This document shows, one piece after another, positions 16,569 through 54,819 of a stretch of 55,997 nt of DNA. The translations under genes and the position numbers were made by a program. Source of the DNA: Chrysophaeum taylorii (Eukaryota > Sar > Pelagophyceae > Pelagomonadales > Pelagomonadaceae); assembly GCA_029834535.1 (NCBI GenBank), contig JAQMWT010000519.1:1-55997 (forward strand), in the 5' to 3' direction. The notes beneath the pieces were generated by a model. That model saw only the letters and a list, made by a program, of their open reading frames with translations, made no database searches and was not told the DNA's origin. Every line of letters starts with the position of its first letter. The first letter of the stretch is position 1.

Positions 16569-19495
16569 AAATCTATCCTTTCTTCCGGCGGCGTATCCGT
16601 GTCTCGATCCGTAGTAACCGAAACCGTTTCGGGGGGGTCCGCAGGAAAAGATGGCGTCGTCCCCGACGTCAACTCTATCGTAAAATCGTCGTCTGCAATA
16701 CTCGCGCTGGTCATCGTCTCGTCAGTCGAATGCGCGCACGAGCTATCACTGCAGAAATCCATGTCTGGCTCACAGCCAGTTCGGTCGCCAACGGTCGTCT
16801 CTGGAGGGTCCAAAGATAAGCCGATGGCATCGAGGGCTTCCTCATCAAAAATAAACGGTGGGTCGTCCGTGGACGACTCGTCAAATAACGTTAACGCGGA
16901 CACTGGTTCACAAAGTGTAGCTTCTTCATCTTCCGAATCTGAATCGCCTTCCCAGTATCGTGGAGCTTCAAGTTCCTCGCTCGAATCTTCGAGCTCATCG
17001 CTCGACATCTGCTCATAAATCTGTGCCAAAGACCGACGATTGGTCAGCACGTCGTTGGGTGGCTCGTCCATCGGTGGGCGAGCAAGATCTTCGAATGCGG
17101 CCGCGGCAAGGGCGTCGGCTGCGTCGTCGGTGCGGGTGTCCGTGTTCGGGTACACCGTCACTCCTAATGGTAACTGTTGACCGCAAGGGGTCGTAAATGC
17201 GAGCGTTGCGCTCAAAAAACTCAAATTATATTGGTGTCGGCCTCCGTCGTATTCGTCGTCGCGCGATCGGCGTCGTCTGTGCCGGCGCGAACTTCGACTG
17301 GGGCTCTTGTTATCTTTGTCTCTCTCTGGCGTCAGTTCGGCAGGTCCTAGTACCTCTGGATCGTCCCTGTAGGCGACTGGTGCTCCCAAGTCTATCCGAA
17401 CTGTCTCAATCGTCTCGTCTATCGAAACATCGACGCATTCGTCGTCTTCTTGCCAAAACTCCGACCAAACGTAAATTAAATCTCGGTTGGCGAATAAATC
17501 CGTGCCTCGGGGTCGGAATTGCACTTCTTTCCGCTCTGGCGGTTTCTTCCTCAGGAAACAGTGAGCTCGTATCCGTATCGTCGGTACGCTCATCTTCCTA
17601 TTATCCATGCTGATCGTCCCATCCAAATTCGATTCCGGGCGGCAGCTATACTCATCCCTCATAGTATGTTCGGGATCTTTCTTTATCACGTAGCCATCAT
17701 CATATGCAGGCTGAAAATCTTTGAACTTTTCGTTCGTGAGTAATACGCCAGGGCTTTCACTGAGCTCCAAAGGCAGTTCATGCGTTATAAGATTCTTCAT
17801 CTCTTCCGCTTTCGTATTCATTTTCTCGGCCGTTTCACTCGGCCTATCATCCACTCCATCGCTTCGAATATCGGCAATCGCCTCGTCACTAAAAATGTCG
17901 GCACACGAATTGTCTGCCATCGTCAAAGGGAATAAAACATCTGCAAAAACGTCTGCAGTCGGTTCGTCGGGGGGCCCTGCAAAAGAAGAAGGCTTCGTCC
18001 CCGACGTCATATCTGTTAGAAACTGGCCACCAAAGGGCACGTGACGTTCGACGGGTGTGTACTCAGGTGCGCGCTTATCATTCGAGGTAATCCTCTGCGA
18101 CGCATCGTCGATCGATCGTGGAGACGAAGTGCCATCCACTTGAATGTCCGGAGGTAAACTCATAGCATCGAGCGTAGCAGCGGCGGGTCCCTTCCTGTGG
18201 GCGTCATCGGCTGCACGGGGCTCGTAAATCGGATTCACACATAACTCCGGCGCGTCGTCAAAACTGAGGGTTCTGTCAGCTGACGACAAATCATATCGTG
18301 CCACCAACGGTGACACCGGGTTAGAAGCGGTTGTCGGCTTCGACCCGTAGTTTAACGACGTTTCGGTCAAATTCTTCGATTCTGTGGGGATTTTGGTTTG
18401 GGTGAGCTCCTTCGACTTGGATTGCTCTTGATCGTAGTTTAACGACGTTTCGGTCATCTCGGACGACTCGTCGTCGTCGTCGCGCGGCTTCCTAACTTTC
18501 GCTCGCGTTCGCGTGGGCGGCGGTACCTCCGAGGGTCGGAATTCTCCCTCGAGACTGCTCGCTCGCCTCGGGCGACTCGGCATACGCAATTCATCTCTTT
18601 CACGTGTCAACGAGCTTACTTGATCTTGGAAGGCGTCTGCTCGAGCGTTGGTCTGACGCAGTTGCTCTATTAGTTCTTCTATCTCCTTCCGGTGTAGCAG
18701 TTCTTTTCGTTCGTCGTTGGCCCGACGCAGTTGCTCTTGCATTATTTTTATCTCATTCCGGTGTATCGATTCACGCCGTATCTCTTCTTCTATCAGCTGG
18801 GTGAGGATTTCTTGTGCGCGCTTATTTTCTCGGCGTATCTCGCGTAAATGGGCTTTGTAAATCTTTGCAGCATTCGGTGGTTCATCACCTCGCGCACGTT
18901 CTGGATGGGCTGCCGGTTGTCTCGCCGGCGGCGCCCTCGGCAGTTCATCGCCGTAGTAGTTCAGCTCTTCTTCCTCATTATCATAATCAGTATCATCGTC
19001 ATTCCGCTCGTTCGTCTCATCCTGACGGCTTGGCGGTTCTTCATATCGTAGCTGCTCGACGGCAGCATCATCGTCTTCCATATCGGCTCTGGCTCGTTCT
19101 AGTCGGCCGAGATCAGAGCGGGTCCAAAATGGTTGAATCGTCGTCGTTCTCGAGCTCCTTCGACTCTGGAACTTCTAATCGTCCACGACACGCGTAATAT
19201 CGTCGTTGCGTGCGTCTTCCACCGACAAATCTATCCGTACGGTGGGCGGCAGAACTCGTCTCTGCCCGGCAAACAATGCCTTATCCGTGAGTTGCGATCT
19301 CACTCCGCTCGCCTGCGGCAGCGGTACCCGGGTTGCGCGTCGGTTAGCACCAAATCGCGCGTCGTCACTTCCGACGACTAACGTATCCGGCCGGGGAACT
19401 TTCCCACGGCAATGGTCCTTCTGGAATTCCTTGTCGGCGCGCTTGATCAGGGCGCGCACGGCTTGTCCGGACCGTGTAGAGAATGCAAGATGCAC
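16565..19495 (-). CDS. gypsy gag-like protein with coiled coil, one in-frame stop
   Basis: The minus-strand frame is open from ATG 19495 to TGA 16565-16567 apart from a TAG at 19175-19177; the next ATG is 19081. About 140 residues precede the stop and 838 follow. The segment KAHLREIRRENKRAQEILTQ onward (~100 residues rich in E/R/Q) is a predicted coiled coil. The rest is acidic and low in complexity. No CCHC zinc knuckle is seen. Two copies of the 21-bp motif (TETSLNY) lie 87 bp apart at 18348 and 18435. The position directly after the primer site supports gag, which would form the particle. Confidence 0.7.
18348..18368 (-). repeat. 21-bp motif 1 (gypsy gag)
   Basis: Matches G + ACCGNAANGTCNTTAAACTA on the minus strand; read as TETSLNY in gag. 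Confidence 0.9.
18435..18455 (-). repeat. 21-bp motif 2 (gypsy gag)
   Basis: Identical to motif 1, 87 bp upstream in the same frame. Confidence 0.9.
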
Positions 19496-19525
19496 TAGTT
19501 CGTTGCGACCGATATAGTCGCTCGA

Positions 19526-19543
19526 ATCTCATATCCTCCACCA
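19526..19543 (-). promoter_or_regulatory. primer-binding site of the gypsy element
   Basis: The plus strand next to the 5' LTR reads as a tRNA 3' end: TCGAAT (T-loop), CTCAT (T-stem), ATCCTCC (acceptor), A, CCA, two bases from the LTR. The minus strand is therefore complementary to such a tRNA and would bind it as primer. I could not identify the tRNA species. Confidence 0.7.
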
Positions 19544-19545
19544 CC

Positions 19546-19883
19546 TGTGGCGCAAGGAGAATTTCAGGGGCTACCTGGCGTGCCTTCGAATCCTGGCTCG
19601 CCGCTCGCGTCCGTGCCCTTGGTGGGGTCACTGGACGAGGATGGCCGTTCTCCCGCCGCCCGACCACAAACAACTCCCGCGCCTGGTCCTCTCAACTTGA
19701 GGACCGGCTGTTGCTTTATGATCAAGGATATATCGAAAATCAGAAATCAGGGTGACGCATGTCACGGAAAAGGAAGATGATGTCGTAGAGAACACTGACA
19801 TCATCAGAACGGAGTAGGGTGCCCCTGATAAGGGGGGGCCCTAGAAGAGGGGTAAGCCTTAGGAGGCGGGAGTTGCCGCCACA
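19546..19883 (-). repeat. gypsy 5' LTR
   Basis: 338 bp, same ends as the left LTR. Differences include a few substitutions and short indels in homopolymers (GGGGGG and AAA runs) and loss of the perfect hairpin. Confidence 0.92.
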
Positions 19884-19914
19884 ATGCTCCCCACACACCC
19901 CCCCCTCTTAGCAG

Positions 19915-20939
19915 TCCTTACTACTAATCGACAGATTTTTGTCTGTTTGTCTGTCTGTTTGTTTGTCCCCCGATTTAGGGTAAGGATCAGGTAGGCCCGC
20001 GAGCCAGGCATTGATCCTCCAAGCCGTCTACGGCGACCTCGCAGACTGTTTCCACGACCCGCGGCGGCTCTTTCAGCGCGCCATTCTCACGCCCCGTCGA
20101 GACGATGTTGTCGATGCTGACAACGCGCGCATGACCGCGGCCTTTCCCGGAGACGAGGCGTCGGAGTTCTTTTCGGCCGACTAGGTTGGGTCGGAAGCCG
20201 ACGCCTCGCTCTTTACAGTCGAGTTTTCGACTCCCTGACAACCAACGGCATGCTGACTTTGAGCGCGAGCTTAAGGTCTTCGCAACCTTGACCCGTCCTA
20301 CGGCCACTGCAACGGTACCGGATACATGATCGATCGTGTCGTTGTCACCGAGGCTCCTCCAACCTGTATCCCTTAAGGCCAGCCTACGCCAAACGATCAA
20401 CAAGAGCCAGGGCCAGACGCCCCGCGAGGTCGGTGTCCTCTTTCCCAAGCCCGTCTTCTGCCACGTCCAGCTCTACGTGGCTCTCTGTCGATCGGCATCC
20501 CCGAGGATAAACTCATCTGGGTCGACGACTCCACCCTACCCCACACGTGCTGCGCAATACCGATAAGCCCTCTCCCGGCGTCTACACGCGCACTATAGGT
20601 GAACTTACTGGGACCAGGTGAACTTACTGGAACCAGGTGAACTTACTGGGGTTAGAGATTGGGACTAGGTGAACTTTGTGACCAGATGAACTTCCTGGGT
20701 CCAAGTGAACCTACTGGGGTTTTTAGAGTAAACTCAAAGGATAGCAGCGTGTGCGGATCAAAGCAGCTTAGATTGGCGGGGGTGACGGCGACGAGTTCAA
20801 AGGAGAGTAGATGTGAGCACGAGTGGGTTTACGCCGAATTTACTGGGGTTAGAGATTGGGACTAGGTGAACTTAACGGGAACAGGCGAACTTACTGGGGT
20901 TAGAGATTGGGAGTAGGTGAACTTACTGGCCTGCACTTG
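19915..20939 (+). mobile_element. Helitron copy H2
   Basis: TCCTTACTAC...GCACTTG, 1,025 bp, inserted into GCAG|TCGACATTT. The uninterrupted site is present at 20,998-21,010 and twice near 22.1 kb, so both ends are exact and there is no target duplication. Same helicase remnant and 3' AGGTGAACTTACTGG array as H1. It lies 31 bp from the gypsy 5' LTR. Confidence 0.88.
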
Positions 20940-21019
20940 TCGACATTTAAAGACAAACAGACAGACAAACATGCTCCCCACACACACCCCCCTCTTAGCA
21001 GTCGACATTTAAAGACAGA

Positions 21020-21993: not shown

Positions 21994-22199
21994 CTCTTCG
22001 CCTGCCCCACGCCTCGGCGATGACCCCGACTAGGTCCCGCGTACTTATCTCCGCCCGTCAGGCACATCCCTCATACCCCACAAACCCACCCACATCCTTC
22101 ATGCTCCCCACACGCACCCCCCCCTCTTAGCAGTCGACATTTAAAGACAGACAGACAAGCCTTCATGCTCCCCACACACACCCCCCTCTTAGCAGTCGA

Positions 22200-22288
22200 C
22201 ATTTAAAGACAGACAGACAGTTTAAAGACTGACAGACAGACAAACAAACAAACAAACAAACAGACAAACATCTGTCGATTAGTAGTTA
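22200..22288 (-). mobile_element. isolated Helitron 5' end abutting H4
   Basis: A GACA/AACA tract followed by CATCTGTCGATTAGTAGTTA is the family's 5' terminus. It touches the 3' end of H4 directly, a tandem arrangement. Confidence 0.7.
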
Positions 22289-23330: not shown

Positions 23331-23358
23331 AGACAAACATCTGTCGATTAGTAGTAAG

Positions 23359-23391
23359 GAAGTGGGGGGGGGCGGTTGGGGGGGGGCGGTC
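23359..23391 (+). other. G-run tract, G-quadruplex candidate
   Basis: Two long G-runs (7-8 G each) around GGCGGTT between the Helitron and the uridylyltransferase start. It could fold as a quadruplex; no function claimed. Confidence 0.4.
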
Positions 23392-27795: not shown

Positions 27796-27961
<166 letters not shown>

Positions 27962-31605: not shown

Positions 31606-31666
31606 GCGACACTCACACGCGCACAAAAAAATTGTGGCAAAAGAAGGTAGGGCCAGGGCTAGTGGC

Positions 31667-31687
31667 TAGTTTAACGACGTTGCGGTC
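31667..31687 (-). repeat. 21-bp motif 3 (copia A, 3' end)
   Basis: After the RNase H stop; in the same frame it would read TATSLN then TAG. Confidence 0.9.
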
Positions 31688-31704: not shown

Positions 31705-34206
31705 TCAATCCTGTAAAGGCTTGTCATCAGAGGCATGATGCATACCGAGTAGAGAACGAAAGGTTGAGAACTCAGCAGCAAGTGGCTTTGTAAAACCATC
31801 CGCCACGTTTAGCTTGCCGGGAACATGATGGACTCGAGTTTTCTGTAGCGAGATGTACTCACGGATCTTAAACCACCTGGTCGACAGTGCCTTGGATCGA
31901 GAAGACCCATCTGGGTTATTAGAGGTGTGAACGGCGGGGGCATTGTCAGACAAGAGAGGTAGGCTTCTAATGACGCGCATATCTTGAGCAATTGGGTTGT
32001 CATTGTCATCGAAATCAACGGGATCAGCGGTGTTCTCACCATTAACATTGTTGACGTAGAAGGTGGGGTTGACGACAAAGGAGAGTTCCAATAGCAGCTT
32101 GCGTAGCCAAACCGCTTCATCAGCACAAATACTGAGGGCTATCAACTCAGCTTCGTGAGTTGAGCAGGAGACAATCGGTTGAAGCTGAAGCTTGCTTTTC
32201 CAACCAGTAAGGCAGTTGAAAAGATAGAAGACAAACCCGGTGGTAGATTTCCTATCTTCCTGTGCTAAGGAAGGGGCGTTGTCAGCGTCAACCATGGCGA
32301 CTAAGGGATCAAACTGTCCAGTGGATACATCCTGCGGTTGGTAGTCGACCACAGTGGATAGATCAATTCGATTAGCGGAGACAGTGCGAAGGTGAGCTTC
32401 AATGGCATTACCTTTAGGATGGAACCAGAGGCGAAGTGAGCGGTTTTCCGGCTTCTTGAGGCAAATGCTCAAGCATTTGGACGTGAAGATACGTAGGTGC
32501 ATGCATACCACGCGAACATCTGCCCAAGGCTTGCGAGAAGTCAGGTCTGCAGGCCACTTGCATGAACACCAGCTTGCCAAGGAGGGTGGCAAAGTGCGAA
32601 TTGATGTACAACTCTGTTTCAGAGCTGGGAGTGCCATCTTTATACTTGAAGGACGGTGACATAGGATATTTGAGCAGGGTCAGTTGTTGCAAGACAGGGT
32701 GATCGGCGAAGAGTTCATCCAGCTTGGCTTGCACATCCAGAGAAATGAATCCATCCGATCACACACCTATGAGGGTATGGACAGGTTCAAACGCTCTACA
32801 GCATACCGTTTGTGGAGGGCATCCTGTAACTCAGTACGAAGAGTGTCATCATTGGACACAATAACAATGTCGTCTACAGACAGACTGCATACGACGAACT
32901 TAGCATGTGCGGATACTCGAGCATATAGGCAAGAGTCCGAATGCAGGCGCTTGTAGCCAAGGCTACGGAAGAAGCCGTCTATCTCTTTGTTCCAAAGAGA
33001 TGGTGATTGCCGAAGTCCATAAAGTGACTTCAGCAGTTTCGGTAGACGTCGGCCCTTGTACTTAGCGTCATCGGGGTCGATAAGCTTGATGCCGTCTGGT
33101 AACTGAACATAGACGTTGGCATCAATGTCAGACTGAACGAAGGCGTTCGGGACGTCTGCATGGTAGACAGGCAATTGCTTGTATGCTGCAATAGCCAGTA
33201 GTACCCGGATTGCGGTCATTGTGGCCATTGGGCTGAAGGTGCCAAAGAAATCGGCGCCAAGAGATGCTAGGAAGCCACGTAGCACGAGGCGAGCCTTGTG
33301 CTTAACGTATTTGCCTGCAGAGTCTGTTTTAATCTTCAGCACCATCCTGCTGTCAATAGGGCGAGAGACACCGTCGGGTAAGGAAAGTTTGAAGCAGCCA
33401 AAGCGGATAATGTCGTGGAGTTCCTTGGCGATGGCCTTGAGGTAGGCGTGCCTGTTTTCAGGCGACATACCGTGGAGGCACTTGAGTTTATATTCGTCAA
33501 TGGAAACGTCCGCTTCTTGGACCTTATATTCGTCAGGACCAACAGTGGCTGGTGAATTATAGTTTAACGACGTTGCGGTCGAGGCAGTGTGCGCAACTTC
33601 GGGATAAGCGGAAACAGCGTCAGTAGGAGTAGGAGAAGCAGATTCCAGTTGAATATGGATAGTAGGGTCGGCATGTAAGACCTGGGTGATATACTCTGTA
33701 GAGACCAGAAGGTATTCCTCCAAGTCAGCCAGAGATGCAGAATTAGCGCCAAACTCGGAGGAGTTGTGATCGATAAAGCTGGTCGGCGCCAGATACGTAA
33801 GTGCATATTGTAAGAAAGAAATGCCAAAGGCAGCAGCGTGCTCAGTGAACGCAGCTAAAAGGGGCTGAGGAATGGGGCACGTAGGTGAACCATCAGCAGT
33901 TAGAAAGGTTGCAGCTGGGATGCTGGATGCGCACTTGGCGTGGGCGAAGTAACCATCGACGTGCGGGTAGCGGGCAAGTAAGTCAGTGCGCAACGGGAGA
34001 AGAAGACGAGCTAACAACGCATGTTCCCCCTCTGAGCAGATAGCAGACCAGAGGACACCACCATTGATATGTAGGGCGGAGAGGGCGGGAGACTTGAACG
34101 TAAGAAAGTGGTGGCGAAGATCCCAGCGGAAATCGGCGAGTTTGCCACCAGCGGCTTTGTAAGCACCAATAGTAGACGCTTGCAGCCGGGCTGGGATATT
34201 TTTCAT
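31705..34206 (-). pseudogene. copia A reverse transcriptase and RNase H
   Basis: The RT frame (34206-32767) has RMVLKIKTDSAGKYVKHKAR, FFGTFSPMATMTAIRVLLAI, VYHADVPNAFVQSDIDANVY, KSLYGLRQSPSLWN and the catalytic box CSLSVDDIVIVSND. The RNase H frame (32637-31705) has LVAMVDADNAPSLAQEDRKS, STTGFVFYLFNCLTGWKSK, SCSTHEAELIALSICADEAV and ends LLGMHHASDD. The two are separated by frame changes around 32,640-32,770. The 21-bp motif lies at 33560 between integrase and RT, and at 31667 after the stop. Confidence 0.9.
33560..33580 (-). repeat. 21-bp motif 4 (copia A, integrase/RT boundary)
   Basis: Read as TATSLNY. Counterpart of motif 10. Confidence 0.9.
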
Positions 34207-36076: not shown

Positions 36077-38117
36077 TTACGGTTTGATAATGGGATGAGC
36101 GGGAATATGACGTTTGCGCCGAACATCGAACTTGAGTTCAGTGTCCAAGGCAGGGGGAGGCGGTGCGTCGTCATCCTGGTGCGCAGCAGGGTCACTTGGA
36201 GGTGCATCCTCATCATCACGAGTAGCGAGAGTATCTTCGTAGGACGAAGATATATAGTTTAACGACATTTCGGTCAAGCAGTTGATGGAAATATATATCA
36301 TACAAGATTGTGCCAAAGACAAGGTATCTGTGCTGCACGTGGTGGAGGCCTGGTCAACGGTCATAAAATTGGATACATAGGATTTCTTCGTCACTGCAGC
36401 AGTATGTTGGAAGGTAGGGTCCAACATAAGGGATTTAATGTCGGCAACGAGGAGCGAAAGGTGCTTGTACAGTGTGCTGGTACCGGCAGGCAGAGCATTG
36501 CTGGGCATGTCGCAGCAAGGGTCGTGGCGAAGAGACAAGAGGAAAGATTCCGGTTGTTTGTTGTGGTTGTTAGCACGAATCAACTCCGGTCGAGTGGGGT
36601 AGCGAAAGTGCCCGTTGCGAGGGTCGAGCAAAATAATGTTGGCATACCCTCGAACGGTGGGCAATGGAGCAAGCACGGCGTGGATCCGAGTTTGCGGTCA
36701 CTTCCACGAAGGTACCATATATAGCGAATATGAGATAAGTGGTGATCTTCCAGGGCAAAATGAGAATCCTTGTAGTCGGAAGAGTTGTCGGTGGCCTTGT
36801 AGGTAAGGCAGCCAGGCATCAGAAGAGAGCATCTGGACAAGAGCTTTTGTATGGCGGTGCCATAGGTGGCAGCGGGGCCGACTTGAGGAAGGGCTTGGAC
36901 TATCCACAAGTAACCCATAAACGGCTCCAAATATATAGATCTGTCCCGGTCGCGGGGGACGTTGGAGGCAGTAAACGTATACGTGCTTCCAAACGCGTCA
37001 ATGGCAGCATGATATTTGGTGGCGGCGTTCTCTATGGTGAGGTTGCCGTCAGAGTGGTGGCCACCAGTTAGGAAGTGGGTGTTGTGTGATGTTGATGAGG
37101 TTGTAAGTAGTAACCTATGTGACGGTTGGTCAGTTTCGAAAACGGTTATGTAATAGGACACAGGAGTGGGTGAGTTAGTGTGCAATTTGGCAAACAAGTT
37201 ATACAGGATTGTAAAAACCTTGACGTGTATAGAATTGGTTGCATGAGGTAGCGGCTCCATGGAGGAGCGTTTAAAGCACAGCTGATGATAAGTACACTCG
37301 GATTGAACAGAGTGAGTACGTTGCTCGTGAGCCTGTTGTGAGTGAAGGCGCAACAGTAACATATTGAGTGTTGCAAGGTCAGCCATAGTAAGCTGAATAG
37401 AACCTGTGCGAGAGTAAGGTGCACACGTTTTAGAACGGGGGCATATGGAGGATCGGGGAACACCCGGATCCAATATTTGGAGATGTGTTTGGGTAACCAA
37501 AGGCGCTTAGGAATGGCTTGTAAGTCATCCACGATCTTTAGGAAGAGCCGTGGATGGAGGATAGGCCATGACAATAAGTTAATTGGTCCAGTAGAATACC
37601 TGCGTGCGATGCATATCCATCTTTCTCTAGATTGGTAGTCGCCACAGAGGTAGGTCGGGAACCTATCAACAACATCGACACAGTAATCGAGCGTAGCATG
37701 GATGAGATTGGCCACAGTTATGTGGTCTTGATGACAGTACTTGTGCGGGGGCGTCATCTCAGCCAGTAGTACCAAGGGTTGGAGTAGCTTGATGACAGAC
37801 AGCATGCTGTCGAAAAGAGAATCGTCCAGCAGGCTGTGTAAGTCTTCGGTCTTATGCTGCTTTAGTAGATTCCTTTCCTCTGGTGAGATTAGGTGAAGAT
37901 GGTTAATAAAGGCGGGGAGAGATTCAAATAATAATACTGTAGGGAAACGGTGGCGCAACATACGAACAAGCGTATCATCAGACTCAACAACAACTTTTAC
38001 ATCGATATTTAAGCTAAAGTAATTAGTGGCTTGAGACAGGAACGCTGGGGTTGACAAACCAGAACAAAGTAACATGACTGAGGGTTTGCGAAGATTGGGC
38101 TCTTGTGAGAGAAACAC
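36077..38117 (-). pseudogene. copia A DNMT, catalytic motif IV deleted
   Basis: From 38,090 leftward: motif I SVMLLCSGLSTPAFLSQATN, motif II VVVESDDTLVRMLRHRFP, motif VI-like LVLLAEMTPPH, motif VIII GDYQSRERWICIARR. Compared with copy B, about 16 residues are missing between ISPEERN and KTEDL (near 37,860), exactly the part with the PPC catalytic Cys. The target-recognition region and motifs IX-X are in ORFs 37500-36580 and 36676-36077 (TRPELIRANNH, NALPAGT). The end reaches the 21-bp motif at 36255. Confidence 0.8.
36255..36275 (-). repeat. 21-bp motif 5 (copia A, DNMT/integrase boundary)
   Basis: Read as TEMSLNY. Counterpart of motif 9. Confidence 0.9.
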
Positions 38118-40600
38118 TGGGCGAGATAGAATTCAGGTTAATGGCGGTGTATTTTGCTGGACAAACTTGTTCTGTTTCCGAAGATTGAGAACCAAAGGAC
38201 GAATCCACGGGCGATCTGGTAAAACTCTTTTGAGTAGATAATTGTAATATGCCAGTAGATCCCTGTTTTCATGGTATCGCTTGAGCGGAAATGCGAGGGA
38301 GCGAAGTTCGAGTTGCTTGTCGCGAGCGATGTTGTAGGTGAGACAAGGGAGAGAAGGTAAATTAGCTGCTATGTAGTGTATGGGAATACGTACATCTTTG
38401 TCTATGCGGCTCGTGACAGCGCTGAGCTTTGGCTCAGATTGATCATTGAACACAGTTTCAGGTTCGTCTGGTTCCACTCGAGCATGCTCAGGATAGCGAG
38501 ATGTCGATTGTGCACTGGCAGAAGACATAAAGCGAAGTCGATCTTGACGTAGCCAACTTGTGGATGATCTGGTAGGGGAACAACTATATTGCGTGTTAGC
38601 ATCATGTGTGAGGCACGTTGCTGTCCAGTGGCAGTTTGAATAACAATCGGCGCGTATTTGGAGTCCAGTGGAATAATATGATTTGGTATTGCAAAATCGT
38701 ACGTGGACATCTGGCAGTGAAGAAGTTCTCCAGAAATAACAGATGAGTTGGAATGATAATCGGTTGAACAGGTGGTGATGGTTCGTCAGCCTCATCAGCC
38801 ATGCCGTGCTTCTCATCAAATGACGATAGCGAAGTATGATCGACATCCCTTTTGGTTTCGGCTTGTGGTGGTTGGTTGAGGGCAGATTGGACCTGTGAAG
38901 ATAGCGAGGACAATAACGCTGGTGGTAAAGCCGAGATGGCGGAAGCAGCAAAGAAGTTAGGCACAATATTGGAGGGATTACCCTGTGTGTTGGAGGCATC
39001 CTTAGTATCTGTAGTAGGAGTGGCCTTTGGGTGGGAGCAGTAGCAACAGTATGATGTTGTGGCTCCACGTAGTTTAACGACTTTTCGGTCGAGGAAAGAT
39101 GGACGTCTACATCATAAATGATATCTTATGCGAACATGAGTTGTTCGTTTAGGCGAAGTAAGGCACTATTGTCCTCAGTAGATGTCGTTGACAGAATGTC
39201 AGCGGATTGCAATAGAGTCTCAAATAACTTGTTGATATTCTGTTGTAGCTGAGCCGTGGTATCATTGTCTGTCACATGCTTCGTAAGTTCGCTACACTGC
39301 TCTTGCAGTGTGTTTAACGTGTGCTTCGTTCGATCTAATAATTTCATGTTAGATCGAGAGGACCTGTCAAAAGTGCGGGGGTAAATTGGGCGATCATGGG
39401 ACTGTCCAGTAGTTTTCTTGGTGACATAAGAATCACCAGAACGATAATATGACAGATCGCTGCGAGAGAAAGGCTGGCGAGCATCATTAGAGTTACGCAA
39501 GCGTCTAGCATTAAACGTGGAAGATGTACCAGGTTGAGACGCAGTAATGAAGGCGAGTGTGTTAGCAGTTTGAGTCAGACTTTTGTCTGATAAATCCAGC
39601 GTGTTTGTAAGTAGTAACTTTGGCTTTGGTTGAGATGTTAATCCTTCGACATAGGGTTGCCAAGAAACAGGGCGTTCTAAGCGTCTTTTGTTCGACCCAT
39701 TTGATACTACATTATACTAGTCTAATGCGTATTCTAAGATATAGCTAGGGTTGGTAGGGTGACACAATCGTTCAGCGTCTGGCACAGGTCGAGATGAAGA
39801 TCGAGTTTCATACATATAACACCAGTCTACCCAACCACGATCGTAACGATTGTTGCTGGTATTATCGGCATAATGCCGATGTATCTCTTCGTAAATTTTT
39901 ATACGAAGAGTACCAAAGTCGAATTGAAGGTCAGTCTCTTCCTGGTTAAGTTGGTAAGAGATTTGCCTAAATGCTAGGACAGCTGCGATAAATACATGGA
40001 CATACCAGTTAGGATTATAAACAACAGAGTTAAACTGCTGTTTCAAGTAGGACACATCAGTAGTCGTAACAGACTCGTAGTGACTAAAGGCAATGAGCAT
40101 AATGGCTCGAGCCTTGTTGGGTAAATAACTTTTGTTATACACCTCATTGATGGCGGGCCAGGCCGCAAGTGCTGGTTTTCCAACACCTTCAAGATTGAAA
40201 TAAGTATGCAAGAATGTAGCATACGTATTCTGATAAGTGTGCCAGTCAGCAGCAGTTAACGAAAACATAGTAACAGGGGCACGAACACGGGTGTCGAAAG
40301 CTAATGCTTTCGGGTGCGCGCGATTTAAGATTCGTTCCTCTTCTGAGAAACGAACATTGATTTCAGGACGTAATGCCTTGACTTCATTGTCGTAGCAGAC
40401 AGTAGCTAGCTGAGCTACTTCTGCATCAGGTAAGTTGGGGAAGGCTTCATTGGTGAAATGCCATTCCTGATACTCAGGGGGCAATTCATCAACAGCTAAA
40501 CGGAGATCAGCAGCCCTATCGGTCTTCCATTCCAGGAAAACGCGATCGAGAATTTGATTCCGGAGGATATTATGTCCGCACCTGTGATCGTCTTAGGTGC
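38118..40600 (-). pseudogene. copia A gag, linker and protease remnant
   Basis: The gag frame (40484-39717, open upstream to about 40,560 in the same frame) begins near PPEYQEWHFTNEAFPNLPDA and is mainly helical. A basic region with SDLSYYRSGDSYVTKKT and a coiled coil (39,500-39,126) follow, then the 21-bp motif (39070) and a short helix module NFFAASAISALPPALLSSLS. The protease retains DFAIPNHIIPLDSKYAPIVI and QTATGQQRASHMML but lacks the D-S-x-A-S loop found in copy B, through a deletion near 38,710. Confidence 0.75.
39070..39090 (-). repeat. 21-bp motif 6 (copia A, gag/protease boundary)
   Basis: Read as TEKSLNY. Counterpart of motif 8. Confidence 0.9.
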
Positions 40601-44793: not shown

Positions 44794-44814
44794 TTACTAA
44801 TTTCTTCTTACAAT

Positions 44815-46463: not shown

Positions 46464-46484
46464 GACCGAAATGTCGTTAAACTA
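46464..46484 (+). repeat. 21-bp motif 7 (copia B, extra copy in gag)
   Basis: Read as TEMSLNY. No counterpart in copy A; part of a duplicated linker module. Confidence 0.9.
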
Positions 46485-47435
46485 TGGGCCAGAACGTTTT
46501 ACTGAGCCTGGACCCAACGCTATTCTTACTACTGATTCCAATGGCCGGCTTTCCTTATGCCATACTGCCGAGTCCGCAAACTTTACTGAAGCTGCCCTTG
46601 CCCAGCTTTCTCAGGAGCAGTTAAAAAAAATCAACTATCCTCTGACAACACCAGCAACAATCGCTACGATAGGATGGGTCGACTGGTGCCTCATCTATGA
46701 AACACGCACCTCCACTAGAGCGCAACCTGAAGCCAACAGACTATGTCACCCTTCTGACTCCTCTGCCATTCTTGAGTACGCACTGGACCTCTACAACTCA
46801 GTGTCCAATACCACAAGCGATAAAAGACGCCTAGAACCGCCAGTCTCTTGGATCCCTTACGTAGAAGGATTGTCCACACATCAAAAGCCCAAATTACTGT
46901 TAACTCAGCTGCTGGACTCCACAGACACTGAACTGGCGCACACAGCACATGTACTTGCGTCACTTACCAATTCAGCCACCAATGGACAACAGTCGAAACC
47001 CGCATTTAATGCTCGCCGCCTACGTAACTCAAAAGACGCTAGTCAGCCCTTCTCGCCCAACGATCTTAGCTACTACCGATCCGGTGACTCCTATGTCACC
47101 AGAGCCCGCAGTCCTGGTCAATCTAACGATCGCCCTGTGTATGCTCGCACCTTTGACAGACCTTCTCGATCTGATATGAAATTACTAGATCGCACCAAGC
47201 ATACTATGCATGCACTCAAAGATCAATTCCAGGAGCTCTCCAAATACGTCAATCAAACTACCACTACCTCTCAGCTGCAAGATAAGATTACAAAGCTATT
47301 TGAAACGTTGTTGCAATCTGCAGATATTATCGCTACTACGTCTAACCCAGACGATAATACAGACTTGCTCCGCTTAAATGATCAACTTTCCTATGCCGAA
47401 GATATCGTTCGGAATGTTGACATACATCTGCTTTC

Positions 47436-47456
47436 GACCGAAACGTCGTTAAACTA
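47436..47456 (+). repeat. 21-bp motif 8 (copia B, gag/protease boundary)
   Basis: Read as TETSLNY; identical in sequence to gypsy motifs 1 and 2. Confidence 0.9.
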
Positions 47457-48214
47457 TGGGGGAGACCAACCTACCATGTCTGCACCCAACATCTCTACTC
47501 CACCTAACACAAGTGGGACCAGCTCTTCACCAGCCACTGCTGTTGCCGCGGAATCAGTCAATTTTACTGCTGACGCCATAGCAAAATTGTCACCTGAGCG
47601 ACTTACGGAGCTCTCGTCACATGTCACTGCAGCAATGCAGGGGTTCCGATCAAGCAGCGACCAATACTACATTGTCGAGCAATCCACAAGATCTTTCGCC
47701 CTTCGATCTTAACAACGGTCTCGGCAAGGACAACGAGGAACCTACCGCGCCCGTCGTTCTTATTACCTTTTCACAAGTTGTGGTCACCTCAAAACTGTTC
47801 ACTCAAACTAATTTGTTCGCAGCCAGCATCCCTTCTACCAGTGTACCTCGCGAAAACGCTTTTCTCACCAAATACCGGAGAGACCATAATCTTCCCCTCC
47901 ATTTCCAATTTCTATACTTGGACAGTTGTGCCTCCATCTCGCTGATGACCACATTTGATTTTGCTTTACCGAACCACATTGTTCCCGTAGACGCTAAATG
48001 TGCCCCAGTTGTCCAAACTGCCACTGGACAACAGCAGGTATCGCATATCATGGTTACAAAAAATATAGTATCCCCTTTACCTGCTCACCCAGGCATTGGC
48101 TACGTCAAGCTTGACTATGCCCTATTCCTCAAACCAGTACAGGGTCGACGCTTGTTCATCCTATGTGCCCCTGAGTGGAACAAGGCTCAGCTAACTGTCA
48201 CGCTCAATGAATGA

Positions 48215-50436
48215 CAGTGAACAACCAAATATGTCGCACCTCACTAGCCTACTTGATAAAGACGTGCATGTGCTCATTCACTACGTCGACCACGACCCCC
48301 CTGCACTACCGTGTCTACCCTACACACTTGCGCGCGATAGGAACCTTGAACTACGCTCACTATCCTCCCCGCTGAGGAGGTACAACGAAAACCGTGACCT
48401 TTGCCCCTGTTACAATTACCTGGTCACCAAGCTCGAAACTCGACCGTGGCTGCGTACTCTACTCCTCGACCTTCGGAAGCAGAATGAATATGCAAGAAAC
48501 AACACTCCACCTCTCACCTGACTACGCACCCGTCCAGCATTCCTATCAACTACCAACAATGACTCTCGCAAACCAACTGTCATGTTACTATGCTCTGAAT
48601 TGTCAACACCTGCGTTCCTGTCACAGGCCACCAATGACTTGGGCTTAAACATCCACGTTAAGATTGCTGTCAAGTCCGACGAAACGCTTGTACGCATGCT
48701 GCGCAAACACTTTCCTAAGATTATTATCTTCGAATCTCTACCCTCCTTCCTCAATCATCTCCAGTCTATAACGGAGGATGAAAGACGGAATTTTTACTGT
48801 GATGTGATAGAAATCACTCCGCCTTGTACCAACCAAAGCCTTATCAAGAGCACCAAAACATCCGACTTGGCCAGTTTGCTCGATGACTTCCTCTTTGACA
48901 GTATGCTATCTGTCATCAACTACTCAAACCCTTAGTTTTACTTGCGGAGATGACACCCCCTCACAAGTGCATTCACAGGGATCACATCTCCGTAGCTAAC
49001 CTCATTCACGCCACACTGGACTACACTGTTGATGTAGTCGACCGCTTCCCTGCCTATCTGTGCGGCGATTATCAATCTCGGGAACGATGGATCTGCATTG
49101 CTCGCAGGTACAACACTGGACCCATGGACATCCTGTCCTGGCCGAACCAGCACCCGAAGCGCTTCTTGGACATAGCAGATGACGTTAACTCGGTGCCTAA
49201 AACCCTCTGGCTCTCCAAGACTCTGTCTCAAGGCTGGGTTCGCACTTACCCAGATCCACCATTGGTTCACTCCCCCAAGACGTTTCCCTTGTATTCTCGT
49301 ACTGGCTCCGTTCGGCTAAGCTTCTATGAGCTTGAGACCCTCAACCTACTCTTCCTCAGGCTTCATTCACAGCAAGCTTTCGAACAACATACACATAAAA
49401 CGCACTCGGAGTGTTCCTATCATCACCTTGGCTTCAAGAGGTCTTCTAATCAACCACTACCCGGGTCATCAAATCCTCTTCGCCTCAAGGCATTTATCAC
49501 CCTATACAATTTGTTCGCCAGAATCTCGCGGAACAACGCTACACCTGTATCTTACTATGTTGCGATTTTCGAAACTAACCAGCCTGCTCCTAGGCTATTT
49601 CTTACAACTTCCTCATCTACCTTCAATATCCACGCTCTTACCGGTGGACACCACTCTGAAGGCAACTTACTAGTTGAGAACAATGCAAGCAAATACCAGG
49701 CTTCCATTGACGCTTATGGATCTACTTACACCCTAACCGCCAGCGATAACCCCGCCGACAAGAAGCTCCATCTCGACTCGTTTCAGGGATACCTATGGCT
49801 AGTGCAAGCCTACCCCCTTGTCAACGCAGCCCACAACACTGTCCCTGCCATCCGCAACTTACTCCAACAGTGCTCTCTTGTTATACCTGACTGTCTCTCA
49901 TACAACCAACCCTCCGACCAATTCATTTTCAAGGACAGATATTTTTCCTTGGGAGATTACCATGTTTCTCATAGCAGGTATATTGACGACTTACGCGGCA
50001 GCGACCGCAAGCTCGGATCCAAAATTCACTATATGTCGGCTCCATTGCCAACTATCCGGGGATATGCCAATATCATCTTGTTGGACCCTCGCAACGGCAA
50101 ACTCCGCTACCCCACGCGAGCCGAACTTATCAAAGCTAACAACCATACTCGCTTCCAGACGTCCCTCTTACTTTCATTGAAAAAAGACTTATGCTGCGAC
50201 CTACTCGGCAATGCTCTACCTGCGGGCACCTATCACACTCTTTACACCCACCTCTGTCGCGTGGTCGCTGATATGAAGTCACTTATGTTGAACCCTTCCT
50301 TTCAACATGACAGTGCTACATTGAAGAAGACTAACGTATCTACCTTCCTCACCCGCGAACTGCTTCTTTCCAGTCACAGCTCAGACACTATCTTTCAGGC
50401 GACTGCATTCATGAGTCATATTTCCAACTGCAGCTG
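48215..50436 (+). CDS. copia B C5 cytosine methyltransferase
   Basis: After a short N-terminal region (48,215-48,521), motif I is VMLLCSELSTPAFL (48,579), motif II VKSDETLVRMLRKHFP, motif III IIIFESLPSF, motif IV EITPPCTNQS with the catalytic Cys at 48,825-48,827, motif VI-like LVLLAEMTPPH (48,933), motif VIII GDYQSRERWICIAR (about 49,060), a ~300-residue target-recognition region, motif IX RYPTRAELIKANNH (50,110) and motif X DLLGNALPAGT (about 50,200). One base is missing near 48,908 relative to copy A, splitting the frame. Motif VI has A-E-M for the usual E-N-V. Otherwise a complete C5-MTase, diverged from the other two. Confidence 0.85.
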
Positions 50437-50457
50437 GACCGAAAAGTCGTTAAACTA
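50437..50457 (+). repeat. 21-bp motif 9 (copia B, DNMT/integrase boundary)
   Basis: Read as TEKSLNY. Confidence 0.9.
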
Positions 50458-51625
50458 CCGTTCCTCAGGAACAACACCTGAGGAAGCCCTTGCTATAGCG
50501 CCCACTGCCGATGATGCTGACACTAACGATGATCCTGATTCCCCATCATTAGACGCATCCACAGAGCTCAAATTCAATGTCCGTCGGAAGAAACACATCC
50601 CGGTCAAAGCAATCCCTCGCAAATCACTCGCCCATGGCACCGTCGAATACCAAAATGCCAAAGAACGCGCCAACCGCTTCCACAATGTACATCACTGTCC
50701 TGATAACGTTGCCGCCAAAGCCCCAGACGTTCTTGCTCGCCCTGGCTTCTCAGCATCCGATATTCCCTACAGGGATATGTGCATAGACTGCATTTGCCAC
50801 GACAAACGTCACCGCCACGCCCATACTAACGAAACCAAGCCCAACTTTGAACAGACCCACCGACCTGGTGAAGTCTGGGCCTGCGATGGTGGCTACGTAA
50901 CCATACCTTCTGAATGGGGCGGCTTCTCCCATATTGTCGTTTTCAAAGAACTACTATCCAAGTTCCTACTCGCCTACTTCACTCGCACTACTAACGCCAC
51001 CGAATTTACTCAAGCATTAGACTACCTGCATAACTTTTGCAAAACGCAACTCAATGTGCACCTACGCACAGTATACTCCGATGCGTTCCGGCCGTACTTC
51101 AGCCAACACATCACCACTCCCTACAGGGTCGAACACGGCATCAACCTTGTTGCTTTCCCACCTTACCTTCATCATTTTAACCACGAGGTCGAACAGAGTA
51201 TAGGCTTTATCGCCTCCGCCTCATCTACTCGCCTCCGTAACCTTCTCAATGCCCATTACCGTGGCGCCAAGATCGTGGAACCTGCCATCCACTTCCCGTG
51301 GGCTGTGATCCACACCATCCAATCATACAACCTCTTGCCAAATGCCTCACTCGCACGCACTCACCACGCCATCATCAGTCCTCGACAGTTTCTATATAAT
51401 CAACTAGCAACACCTCAACATGATCTCCTCAAGATCTTTGGCAGCGAGTGCTTCCTCCTCCTTGAGCCTCATGAACACCACAAGTATGAGCCCTCTCGGC
51501 GCCGCTATCTCTACCTGTGCTGCGCCAACTCCCAAAACCCATATGTCTCTCCGCATGTTGACCATCAAGCTGATGTTGTCCTTAATCCTGAGATGGCCAG
51601 CTTCGCATCATCTATAAACTGCTGA
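50437..51625 (+). CDS. copia B integrase
   Basis: In the same open frame as the DNMT C-terminus (48,950-51,625). It starts at the 21-bp motif, with HHCPDN plus CIDCICHDK as the zinc module, VWACDGGYVTIPSEWGGF (first Asp), TVYSDAFRPYFSQH (second Asp), HFNHEVEQSIGFI (Glu), then the RNLLNAHYRGAKIVEPAIHF and ARTHHAIISPRQFLYNQLAT helices typical of copia integrases. Intact over its catalytic core. Confidence 0.9.
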
Positions 51626-51636
51626 CCTTCACCTAC

Positions 51637-53263
51637 ATGATCCGCCGCTCCGCCTTGGATCCTGAACATGCTCCTCCACCGGATGCTCCGCCAGTATCCT
51701 TCGACATTAGCCCTCATCGTCATGAAGACCCCGATGATGCGTTACAGGAGGGGATTCATCCTGGGAGGGGGCACACGCCCGCACCTGCCCCGTCGCCAAC
51801 TCCGCCTCCTTCTCCTAAGCCTACATCCGCAGCCTCGCTACCTGCTGACGACACTATTTCTCGTGACGACAATACCATTTCGCCACCGCCAATTCTCCCT
51901 TCTTACAAGGACTTGTTCTCTCAAGGCCACCTTCAACTTGTCCCAGGGACTTAGCGCCCCAACCAGCGTAAAGCCGCCTGCATGACCTCTGTCAATTCTC
52001 GGCTCCAAGCCTCTACGGTTGGTGCCTATAAAGCCGCTGGCGGCAAACTCGCTGACTTCCGCTGGGACCTTCAACATCGCTTTCTCGATTTCAAATCAAC
52101 AACCCTCTCCTCCCTCAACACCTCTGGTGGCATCCAGGACGGCTCTCTGCCCAGAGGGGGAGCAGGCTCTGCTGGTCAAACACCTCCTTCCATTGCGTAC
52201 CGATCTTCTATCTCGCTACCTTTTACTAGATGGTGCTTTCTCGCAAACCAAATGCGCATCCAGCATCCCAGTAGCTACACACCTCCTCACCGATGCCACT
52301 CCTAGTGGCCACCTCCCGCCTTCACTTGTCGCTATGTTCATGGAACATGCTTCAGCGTTTGGTGTCTCTCCATTGCTATACGCTTACTGTTACCTGGCAC
52401 CCACCAGTCTCATCGATCACTCGCCATCTGAGTTTGGCGCTGCATCCGCCGAATTGTCTGACCTGGAGGAATACCTCCTATGCACTACCGAGTACATCAC
52501 CCAGGTACTTCATGAGGAGCCCCTCCTGGTTGTTGCCTTGGAACCTGACCACTCTACCCCTTCCACTTGTGCCACTCACGCATATCCTGAAGTCCTCTAC
52601 ACTGCTTCGACCGAAACGTCATTAAACTATGGCTCTCCAGCCACTATAGGTCCGAACGAATACAAAGTCCAAGAGGCCGACGTATCCATCGACGAGTACA
52701 AGCTCAAGTGTCTTCAAGGCCTTTCCCCTGAAGACAGACAAGCCTATGTCAAGGCCAGCGCAAGGAACTACATGATACAGTGCGCTTCGGCTGCTTTAAG
52801 CTATCTCTACTTGATGCCCCTACTCGTCCAATTGACAGCCGGCTCGTCCTCAAGATCAAAACGAACGCGTCTGGCGATTACATAAAGCACAAGGCCAGAT
52901 TAGTCTTGCGTGGATTTCTAGCCTCACTTGGCGATGATTTCTTTGGGACGTTCAGCCCTATGGCAACTATGACCGCCATGCGTGTCATCTTAGCAATTGC
53001 GGCGTACAAAAGACTACCGGTCTACCATAGTGACGTGTCCAACGCGTTCGTCCAGTCCGACATCGACGCACACGTCTACGTCCAACTCCCGGATGACATC
53101 AAACTACTTGACCCTCACGACGATAAATACCGTGGCCGCCGCTTACCCAAGTTACTGAAGTCCCTCTATGGACTCAGGCAATCCAATTCTCTCTGGAACA
53201 AAGAGATCGACGAGATCGACGGCTTCTTTCGGAGTCTTGGATACAAGCGACTCCATGCGGATA
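51637..53263 (+). pseudogene. copia B integrase-RT linker and RT N-terminal part
   Basis: A Pro-rich acidic linker (51,637-51,954) is followed by a conserved region of unknown role (RLQASTVGAYKAAGGKLADF; EYLLCTTEYITQVLHEEP), the 21-bp motif at 52609, then RT: RLVLKIKTNASGDYIKHKAR, FFGTFSPMATMTAMRVILAI, VYHSDVSNAFVQSDIDAHVY and KSLYGLRQSNSLWNKEID. A 6-bp duplication gives EIDEID where copy A has EID. Frame changes at about 52,130 and 52,780. RT is cut at 53,263 by the SINE. Confidence 0.85.
52609..52629 (+). repeat. 21-bp motif 10 (copia B, integrase/RT boundary)
   Basis: Read as TETSLNY. Confidence 0.9.
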
Positions 53264-53557
53264 ACTAACTAACTAACTTCAGACCTCTCCCGAGCATGGG
53301 AGCCAGGCCGGACCGACAGGAGCCAGTCCGGAATCACGGGCCTGTAGACGAGGGGCGCCGAAAGGTGGGTCGGCGGAGAGTGATCATCAAGCTTGTCGCC
53401 ATGCGACGAGGAGACCGCGATGTGACTGACAACCAACTCGTCGATAACCTTCCGTCATCGCCCCCCGGCCATACCCCGTCCCACTGCGAACGTTCCGGCT
53501 GCCAACCGGCCCGCCCGAGAGGCGAATAGGTGCCAACCTACGCCGGGAGGGCGGATG
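53264..53557 (-). mobile_element. SINE-like element copy 2, 10-bp target duplication, inside copia B RT
   Basis: 294 bp between two copies of CATGCGGATA (53254-53263 and 53558-53567). In minus orientation it ends with the family's (TTAG)n tail, seen as AACTAACTAAC at 53,265-53,275. It is truncated at its 5' end relative to copy 1. Removing it with one target copy restores the RT frame. Confidence 0.88.
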
Positions 53558-53567
53558 CATGCGGATA

Positions 53568-54787
53568 CTTGCTTATATGTTCGCACATCCCACACTCGCT
53601 TTTTCATTTGCAGTTTATCAGTGGACGACATTGTTATAGTGTCAAATGATGACACTCTCCGCACAGAGTTACAAGAAGCGTTACATGTGCGCTTCTCTGT
53701 GGAACAATTCGAGCCAGTCCATACTCTTCTGGGAATGCGTGTCTGCCGAACGTCGGAAGGATCCATATCGTTAGATATCGAAGCCAAACTAGAAGCATTA
53801 TTTAACGATCACCCTATACTAAAAAAACTCGCTCCACTAAGGTATCCTATGTCATCCACTTTGACTTATAAAGAAGGCACCAACGTGGAAATTTATATCC
53901 ACGATCACTTCGCTACTCTACTTGGTAAATTGGTCTTCATGCAAGTTGCTTGTCGCCCCGATTTCTCCCAAGCTCTAGGGCGCTGTTCCCGAGGTATGCA
54001 CTCTCCCACCTATGTGCATGTCCAAATGCTCTGTCACCTCCGAAGGTACCTCAGCAAACCTGCCAATCGAGCTCTTCGTCTCTGGTTTCACCCTAAAGGG
54101 AATGCTATCGAAAACCATCTACGCGTCATTTCATATAATAGAGTTGACCTGTCAACAATAATCGACTACCGGGACAAAGACATCGCTGCTGGCAAGTTCG
54201 ACCCTCTAGTTGCTATGGTGGATGCCGACAACGCTCCTTCACTGGAACAGGAAGACAGAAAGTCCACTACTGGCTTTGTTTTATACCTGTTCAACTGCCT
54301 CATCGCCTGGAAAAGCAAACTACAACCCATAGTTTCGTGTTCTACCCACGAAGCTGAGCGTATCGCTCTCAGCATCTGCGCTGACGAAGCAGTCTGGCTC
54401 CGTAAGTTACTTCTTGAGCTCTCGTTTGTTGTTAATCCGACATTCTATATGAATACGCAAACTGACCCTCCTTCCGATTTTGACGCTGACGACAATCCTA
54501 TTGCCGAGGATACGCGCTTCATCAGAAGCCGACGTCTTTAGTCTGATAATGCTGCAGCTGTGCACACGTCCAACAACCCAGACGGTTCTTCTCGTAGCAA
54601 AGCCATTTCCACTCGATGGTTCAAAATTCGAGAATATGTCGCACTAAAGAAAATTCGTGTTCACCATGTCCCTGGCAAGTTAAACGTTGCTGATGGCTTC
54701 ACAAAGCCTCTTGCGGCCGACTTTACCACACTCCGTTCTCTTCTAGGTATGCACCATTCTACTGACTCAGACCAAGAAGATACCTAA
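53568..54787 (+). pseudogene. copia B RT C-terminal part and RNase H
   Basis: ORF 53555-54541 has the catalytic box CSLSVDDIVIVSNDD, HTLLGMRVCRTSEGSISLDI, LGKLVFMQVACRPDFSQALG, then RNase H: AMVDADNAPSLEQEDRKSTT, GFVLYLFNCLIAWKSKLQ and CSTHEAERIALSICADEAVW. A TAG at 54540 splits off the last segment (54,560-54,787): HTSNNPDGSSRSKAISTRWF and VHHVPGKLNVADGFTKPL, the standard copia RNase H ending. Confidence 0.9.
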
Positions 54788-54798
54788 CCTCAAGCCCT

Positions 54799-54819
54799 GA
54801 CCGCAATGTCATTAAACTA
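54799..54819 (+). repeat. 21-bp motif 11 (copia B, 3' end)
   Basis: After the RNase H stop; in frame it would read TAMSLN then TAG, as in motif 3. Confidence 0.9.

Follow-up and report, generated by a model that had tools for sequence, protein, structure and literature searches.

Coremin-type exoribonuclease-resistant RNAs (xrRNA-C) are known from beny-, cucumo-, umbra-, enamo-, hypo- and chrysoviruses, for example from RNA3 of beet necrotic yellow vein virus (BNYVV) (PMC10520033; PMC5869530; statements drawn from these articles, and from PMC5760640 and PMC5890265, refer to the available part of each text). Their published core is GUCCGAAGACGUUAAACUAC, with a hexaloop consensus YGNNAD and a spacer of 8-10 nt, and it stalls Xrn1 one nucleotide before its first hairpin (hp1) as well as scanning ribosomes (PMC10520033); a 55-nt coremin fragment stalls 5'-3' exonucleases (PMC5869530). 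Here we describe a motif with this architecture in a 55,997-nt stretch of contig JAQMWT010000519.1 of the pelagophyte Chrysophaeum taylorii (assembly GCA_029834535.1; "the window" is this whole stretch), where it recurs in two copia elements, called copia A and copia B, and in one gypsy-like element, all of the long terminal repeat (LTR) type. The motif is probably the conserved core of a coremin-type xrRNA in its hexaloop form, namely the hp1 stem-loop followed by the spacer UUAAACUA, and as such would stall Xrn1-like enzymes.

The comparison with viral coremin shows both shared and divergent traits. Shared are a 4-bp hp1 with a covarying stem, the identical spacer and a place in the sense RNA of a parasite, along with a YGNNAD-type loop at part of the sites and a predicted second hairpin (hp2) of free sequence at several; viral coremin, too, has been described from intergenic regions and from a small number of coding sequences. 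In contrast, the cores described here belong to retrotransposons that have become part of a cellular genome, lie for the most part within the polyprotein frame, and are serial: a copia element carries as many as four or five, the gypsy element has two, and one was seen in a third copia family. The loop often ends in C, hp2 is weak at the untranslated site, and exonuclease stalling is what we infer from the sequence. The xrRNAs of flaviviruses and of luteo- and tombusviruses resemble the motif in presumed effect, a mechanical block of 5'-3' exonucleases that leaves a stable subgenomic RNA, but have larger pseudoknotted folds (PMC10520033). The host elements recall retrotransposons of dinoflagellates and charophytes with a cytosine methyltransferase (DNMT) in the polyprotein; those are LINE, DIRS and gypsy elements, whereas here they are copia and gypsy-like, and the available main text of that study has no occurrence of "Conserved motif" (PMC5890265). 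The RNA motif itself is known, while its serial, frame-embedded use in retroelements and its use in phages appear new. Among the open-access papers listed, judged by title and abstract start, none reported coremin or another xrRNA from a retrotransposon, a phage or a bacterium, and "bacteri" and "transposon" have no occurrences in the main text of PMC10520033.

A stem kept at the RNA level, and its spacer

An earlier note on this window, made from the letters alone, had listed eleven copies of a 21-bp motif in what it called unrelated retrotransposons. The pattern GACCGNAANGTCNTTAAACTA matched exactly at 11/11 of these positions, on the minus strand from 18348 to 39070 and on the plus strand from 46464 to 54799. 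In a sliding recount of the whole window, no further copy with 1-4 substitutions appeared, and two matches with 5 substitutions, at 15096 (+) and 18743 (-), were chance-like. The whole-genome search that the note had proposed returned 569 + 569 = 1138 exact copies in 70.8 Mb (697 contigs), where about 0.002 copies are expected by chance for 18 fixed bases; the same pattern read backwards gave 0 copies. In 90 + 92 of the genome copies the next base is G, yielding TAG as at the site behind the pol stop.

As RNA, the motif would form a stem GAC/GUC with a loop CGNAAN, followed by the spacer UUAAACUA and often by a second hairpin. The spacer, UUAAACUA(C), is identical in all eleven window copies and has the same letters as in the published coremin core, from which the window motif differs in an A-U/U-A stem pair and in a loop two bases longer.

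The hp1 structure is under selection at the RNA level. A swapped second stem pair (GUC/GAC, pattern GTCCGNAANGACNTTAAACTA) occurs in 83 + 70 = 153 genome copies, and all A/T combinations at this pair amount to 656 + 642 = 1298. Since A-U accounts for 1138 and U-A for 153 of these, only 7 are mismatched (A.A or U.U) against 1291 paired. We read 20 of the 153 swapped copies, and all of them (6/6 + 14/14) lie at one orthologous, untranslated site behind pol in the third copia family. They sit 17 or 19 nt past the pol open reading frame (ORF) end (one locus, L267, has a shortened RNase H end), and the four at distance 19 do not share the frame of pol. A peptide can hardly account for a base pair that was compensated at an orthologous position lacking translation, and the view that selection or origin is nucleotide-level, held in the earlier note, is borne out. 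The note's suggestion of an RNA cis signal is supported and can now be given a name, the coremin-type xrRNA.

Two other identities for the motif were rejected. ARAGORN found no tRNA in the window, which argues against a tRNA primer-binding or tRNA-derived origin. In frame, GUUAAAC resembles a -1 frameshift slippery heptamer; this reading was dropped, as most phage copies are intergenic, the motif is untranslated behind pol, and some copies read AUUAAAC or UUUAAAC. Rfam gave no window match at gathering score.

Site placement, module borders and the peptide frame

Copia A, on the minus strand, is a homologue of copia B, on the plus strand: they have 67-70% nucleotide identity in pol and share four orthologous sites, S1 to S4. 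The gypsy-like element is a separate lineage whose two copies lie 87 bp apart, so that "unrelated retrotransposons" describes gypsy against copia and not the two copia families. Along a copia element, the gag part is followed by S1, then by protease and DNMT, by S2, integrase, S3, reverse transcriptase (RT)/RNase H, the stop, S4, and a third ORF (ORF3) with S5. This agrees with the module-border placement first noted: the sites close the gag region, precede integrase and RT, and follow the RNase H stop. This order rests on Pfam matches and on reading of translations: the RVT_2 match of copia A is well above the Pfam cut-off, those to integrase and RT of copia B and to RT and methylase of the gypsy element are below it, and the protease/DNMT call in copia A is a translation reading. 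The rve integrase core, also below cut-off, lies about 140 residues downstream of copia B S2.

Beyond the eleven window copies, the set of sites proved larger than first listed. S5, in another ORF behind pol, was seen in L001, L002, L013, L015 and L022 (at 282; L-numbers denote fetched loci). On a further contig, C9, one copia A copy shows two LTR-like repeats (99403-99722 and 110591-110903) and between them S1 at 101322, S2 at 104322, S3 at 106490, S4 at 108397 and, as a one-mismatch copy at 109681, S5 inside a 641-codon open stretch behind pol. Copia B in the window carries a duplicated gag site, its copies at 46464 and 47436 sharing a 67-nt repeat. Across 32 sequences of the own genome (window, L001-L025, L264-L269), all 57 paired-stem hexaloop copies read belong to eight recurring LTR-element site classes; none was left unplaced and none of this sample lay outside retroelements.

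Between A and B, one copy each, all 18 fixed positions are identical at 4/4 orthologous sites. The same 18-position mask is met in 16 of 5705 aligned ungapped A/B windows, a count that includes the four sites and ten windows of one leader stretch. That the motif is common to copia and gypsy elements of one genome might suggest a DNA-level signal or a short recombination homology through which modules are shuffled, as the earlier note had also considered. The flanks are orthologous at each site in A and B, the classes are fixed, the stem covaries with a mismatch rate (7/1298) expected of RNA and not of duplex DNA, and the phage copies lie mostly between genes, all of which makes such a signal extremely improbable.

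The coding sites share one frame, xxG ACC GNA ANG TCN TTA AAC TA(y), read as T-[E/A]-[T/M/K]-S-L-N-Y in the window, as reported before, and in the fetched element copies, some of which have stops or frameshifts near the motif. Across coding copies residue 2 varies between E and A and residue 3 among T, M, K and A, and no residue is fixed after Y. The HIV protease cuts SQNY/P, a site that this peptide resembles, and a single frame at all coding site classes, the module borders and the aromatic last residue would all fit a polyprotein cleavage site for the element protease. Against this stand the fixed synonymous positions, including the TTA Leu codon, the variable residues just named, and above all S4, which is conserved without being translated in A, B, L009 and the third family and shows the compensatory stem swap. 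Moreover, in two related families the only copy read lacks the S2 peptide, 93 of the 102 paired-stem phage copies lie outside ORFs (at least 80 codons), and 0/13 homologous copia proteins elsewhere have a TExSLNY- or TAxSLNY-like stretch within 2 substitutions, although these alignments span 25-54% of the query and may miss linkers. We consequently rejected a protease site as the main cause and hold this explanation, which the earlier note had listed first and which the data do not need, to be very unlikely. On the RNA-level account, the TExSLNY peptide is mainly a by-product: its constancy would result from keeping the RNA inside an open frame. A second, peptide-level (cleavage) use may exist, since every coding site class stands in the same frame.

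Whether the borders themselves matter is a separate question. Linkers might simply tolerate a fixed 21-base insert and a hairpin, with several xrRNAs kept for redundancy against decay; the coding sites read do fall in linkers outside recognised domains, and sites are gained and lost between families. S4 speaks differently, as its position behind the pol stop is constant in A (17 nt; 21 in L002), B (11 nt), L009 (32 nt, two stops) and the third family (17 or 19 nt). This constancy, within 11 to 32 nt, suggests that at least the place of S4 matters: S4 is the site whose placement looks functional, kept behind the stop in four families. We consider placement without a function of its own rather unlikely.

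Loops, second hairpins and the weight against a simple xrRNA

Several observations weigh against the coremin identification, and the loop provides the foremost. All eleven window loops read CGNAAN; 5/11 end in A or U and fit YGNNAD, whereas the terminal C of the other 6/11 (CGAAAC or CGCAAC) departs from the consensus established in vitro. At this last loop position stands C in 20, T in 17 and A in 7 of 44 unique own-genome copies, T in 62, C in 17, A in 17 and G in 1 of 97 phage copies, and T in 51, C in 13 and A in 3 of 67 bacterial copies. In the BNYVV context, CGAAAU is Xrn1-resistant, CGAAAG is partly active and CGAAAC gives no Xrn1 stall (PMC10520033). A common C and nearly no G at the last loop position are thus the reverse of the in vitro result. 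C-ending loops are either functional in their native context, which the authors considered for a chrysovirus, C at the loop end being present in 2/4 natural chrysovirus motifs (PMC10520033), or such copies serve another purpose; this is the main point against a simple xrRNA reading.

In favour of coremin, a classical tetraloop occurs in four own-genome copies, all at copia A S1 and three with an intact stem. Although this loop lacks two of the bases present in frame-keeping copies, it obeys the coremin rule. The four are near-copies with broken surrounding frames and probably represent one event.

The predicted hp2 is uneven: strong at S1 and S2 of A and B, at the duplicated gag site and at the downstream gypsy copy, moderate at S3, and weak or absent elsewhere. 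Hairpins of -8.4 to -13.2 kcal/mol and of unrelated sequences follow S1 and S2 in A and B in the window; those behind S1/S2 in other element copies range from -5.6 to -11.5 kcal/mol, and the B S2 hairpin in three other B copies read from -5.6 to -9.8 kcal/mol. At S3 the values are -4.9 to -5.4 kcal/mol in the window, -5.4 in L020 and -5.7 in L014. Taken jointly, S1-S3 reach P ~0.004 (0.4% of random triples of aligned control positions were as low), which favours the coremin reading. S4, outside this joint sum, is unremarkable alone, 577/835 controls being as low: no hp2 is predicted in B, and the energies are -2.3 to -5.0 kcal/mol in A, 0 to -6.1 in the third family and -0.5 in L009. The upstream gypsy copy (0 to -2.3 kcal/mol) and S5 (-1.2 to -4.5) are similarly weak, and hp2 is not supported as a universal feature of the motif. 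Over 43 unique own-genome copies, which are related, the mean is -5.8 against -3.6 for shuffles; phage copies show a modest hp2 excess (p 0.009), and the excess in bacterial copies is not significant (p 0.24). In vitro, hp2 is required, with free sequence (PMC10520033).

Further points count on the same side. The fourth stem pair (-1/13) has no excess of pairing in the own genome (0.84 vs 0.83 expected), unlike in phages (0.86 vs 0.71 expected) and bacteria (0.82 vs 0.70), where the excess supports the stem. P-values taken over copies overstate, since own-genome copies are related. The single copies read from two related families (L006, L009) have no S2, and L004, L018 and L009 show a degenerate S5, so that no single site is indispensable. 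Finally, an RNA-only account leaves the one frame shared by all coding site classes to common descent or chance.

The window cores and their putative second hairpins are collected in the table.

Table. Probable coremin cores and putative second hairpins in the window; cores are based on exact motif matches, hairpins are predicted.
Feature	Position	Strand	Remarks
Core, gypsy element, downstream copy	18348..18368	-	loop CGAAAC
Putative hp2, downstream gypsy copy	18317..18347	-	-12.6 kcal/mol
Core, gypsy element, upstream copy	18435..18455	-	loop CGAAAC; hp2 very weak (-1.5)
Core, copia A S4, untranslated	31667..31687	-	loop CGCAAC; 17 nt past RNase H stop
Weak putative hp2, copia A S4	31652..31666	-	-3.0 kcal/mol
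Core, copia A S3, before RT	33560..33580	-	loop CGCAAC; RVT_2 in same ORF
Putative hp2, copia A S3	33538..33553	-	-5.4 kcal/mol; 6 nt past spacer
Core, copia A S2	36255..36275	-	loop CGAAAU
Putative hp2, copia A S2	36232..36252	-	9 bp, -8.4 kcal/mol; sequence unlike hp2 of copia B S2
Core, copia A S1	39070..39090	-	loop CGAAAA
Putative hp2, copia A S1	39031..39068	-	-10.0 kcal/mol
Core, copia B duplicated gag site	46464..46484	+	loop CGAAAU
Putative hp2, copia B duplicated gag site	46485..46516	+	-11.8 kcal/mol
Core, copia B S1, end of gag region	47436..47456	+	loop CGAAAC; orthologous to 39070
Putative hp2, copia B S1	47457..47488	+	-10.0 kcal/mol
Core, copia B S2, before integrase	50437..50457	+	loop CGAAAA
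Putative hp2, copia B S2	50461..50485	+	9 bp, -13.2 kcal/mol
Core, copia B S3, integrase/RT border	52609..52629	+	loop CGAAAC; orthologous to 33560
Putative hp2, copia B S3	52630..52643	+	-4.9 kcal/mol
Core, copia B S4, untranslated	54799..54819	+	loop CGCAAU; 11 nt past RNase H stop; no hp2 predicted

Other repeated and mobile sequence surrounds these sites. Copia B is broken twice, at 45489-45854 and 53262-53558, by a repeat of ~300-370 bp in opposite orientations; with its identity of up to 99% to copies at many of the other loci fetched, this repeat is a non-autonomous mobile element of young age. A plus-strand ORF (30679-31605) at the 3' margin of copia A, which itself runs on the minus strand, carries a C-5 DNA methylase domain (Pfam E 4e-8), suggesting one more element, or part of one, that bears a methyltransferase. 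Direct and inverted copies of repeats whose units resemble CCCAGTAAGTTCACCTGGTC occupy 11772-12788, 19938-23340 and 43742-44805.

Phages, bacteria and the exonuclease side

The exact motif is also present in 57 phage contigs, one copy each. As the -1/13 position of these copies appeared paired, the stem was relaxed in the search pattern (CCGNAANGNNNTTAAACTA), and 80 loci were read of at least 120 matches; these 80 include 15 loci shared with the exact set, as well as some near-duplicates. Among the matches listed, both free stem pairs are canonical in 66 of 81 relaxed phage matches (~14% by chance), and the stems are mostly GUC/GAC and GAC/GUC, with CAC/GUG, GGC/GCC and AAC/GUU as well. The spacer belonged to the search pattern in the phage and bacterial collections, and its conservation there is not informative. 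In bacteria, the swapped form was found in 85 stretches of genome contigs. The genomes of the 80 of these 85 that were listed are, by title, Bacillota, phytoplasmas and relatives, Arthrospira, and a few patescibacterial, actinobacterial and archaeal metagenome-assembled genomes; proteobacteria are absent among these 80. Lactobacillales yielded 13 matches in 13/295 genomes, all 13 with a paired stem, against 0 for the control; one of these genomes had served as a search centre because of its motif copy. Copies in bacterial loci lie outside ORFs in 67 of 80 cases.

These copies have varied neighbours. In streptococcal and lactococcal chromosomes (L188, L200, L218, L235, L253) a coremin-like core is present, and in L188, L235 and L253 it stands shortly upstream of a start that resembles the N-terminus of DnaK. 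A cellular stress operon may thus carry such a core. Arthrospira sp. PCC 9108 has 10 copies, and in the 9 loci read (L193, L195, L197, L203, L215, L220, L221, L238, L241) each lies shortly upstream of near-identical genes starting MSIK.STPGLNVVEYSYMS. Phytoplasma genomes hold many similar copies; in 12 loci (L176, L179, L187, L204, L217, L225, L236, L239, L240, L244, L245, L250) a terminator-like hairpin (AGATTACTTT..AAAGTAATCT) and a T run follow the core, which places these copies in 3' ends of a repeated unit.

Structured RNAs are found beside several phage copies. A ROOL RNA (Rfam, E 5e-59; L081:602-1181) ends 31 nt before the core at 1213-1233, which may mark or protect that RNA. A T-arm-like hairpin (GGTTCGATTCC type) directly precedes copies in lactobacillus-type phage or chromosome loci L100, L102, L112, L142, L205, L213 and L227; ARAGORN found no tRNA in L100, L102 and L142 and one of unknown type adjoining the motif in L112, and these hairpins may be tRNA-like remnants. 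A twister-P1 ribozyme match (L058:733-784, 54.5 bits, below gathering) lies ~285 nt downstream of the motif, and in L128 a hammerhead-like stretch was noticed by eye behind a copy. At gathering score, Rfam gave only tRNAs in 10 phage loci; in 13 others, searched with E up to 10, the sole match touching the motif was a weak AbsR28 (E 1.8, below gathering score), which in L073 stops at the second base of the motif. The twister-P1, ROOL and tRNA-like neighbours had prompted us to consider a self-cleaving ribozyme. This was rejected, as no gathering-score match covers the motif in the window or the 10 phage loci, none of note does in the 13 others, and coremin explains the fixed positions.

A likely function for the motif is to stall 5'-3' RNA decay, or else ribosomes, at module borders. 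The ribosome version is the nearest alternative: the same folded RNA would be selected for slowing or blocking ribosomes there, in aid of co-translational module folding or of initiation control at the 3' ORF. The hexaloops CGAAAA and CGAAAU stall scanning ribosomes in vitro better than wild type (PMC10520033), the coding sites occupy linkers between modules, and 44 of the 102 phage copies lie at most 60 nt upstream of the next same-strand ORF. Yet S4 sits past the stop codon, the published stall was measured on scanning ribosomes, ribosomes pass eventually, and CGAAAC loses most of the stalling (PMC10520033) while C-ending loops are common here. Together these points leave ribosomes an unlikely target of selection.

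For exonuclease stalling, candidate enzymes are encoded. XRN_N occurs three times in the own genome above cut-off (best E 4e-83), and one ORF carries XRN_N together with XRN_M, the Xrn1 helical domain. We picture that element RNA, decapped or cut, would be degraded 5'-3' by an XRN-family exonuclease, and would meet cores lying serially in the sense RNA at the gag end, before integrase, before RT, past the pol stop and in the next ORF. The enzyme would halt at the first intact core, one nucleotide before hp1, held by hp1, spacer and hp2. Downstream RNA (protease-DNMT, integrase, RT-RNase H or the 3' ORF) would then survive, 5'-truncated and stable, starting at a module border, and might act as template, messenger or XRN sponge.

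In bacteria, RNase J would be the obvious target of the copies, as bacterial RNase J1 is known to be blocked in vitro by an xrRNA of flaviviral origin (PMC5760640). Phages and bacteria have this core ahead of genes and after structured RNAs, and we tentatively propose, as an idea we hold possible without yet calling it probable, that exonuclease blocks of the coremin type shield mobile elements in general, across domains: serial in LTR retrotransposons, where they would give stable module-sized RNAs, and stopping RNase J in phages and RNase J-bearing bacteria, as a convergent device also placed on cellular operons (e.g. ahead of dnaK in streptococci).

With their many natural variants of loop and stem, these copies would cast doubt on the YGNNAD rule as it now stands. 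If the proposal is true, it would supply natural substrates for RNase J, which a 2018 flavivirus study described as an enzyme never naturally met by xrRNAs (PMC5760640). Retrotransposons and bacteriophages would then share the tiny decay-stopping RNA of plant and fungal viruses, and the serial cores would offer a direct handle on how LTR retrotransposon RNA survives 5'-3' decay.

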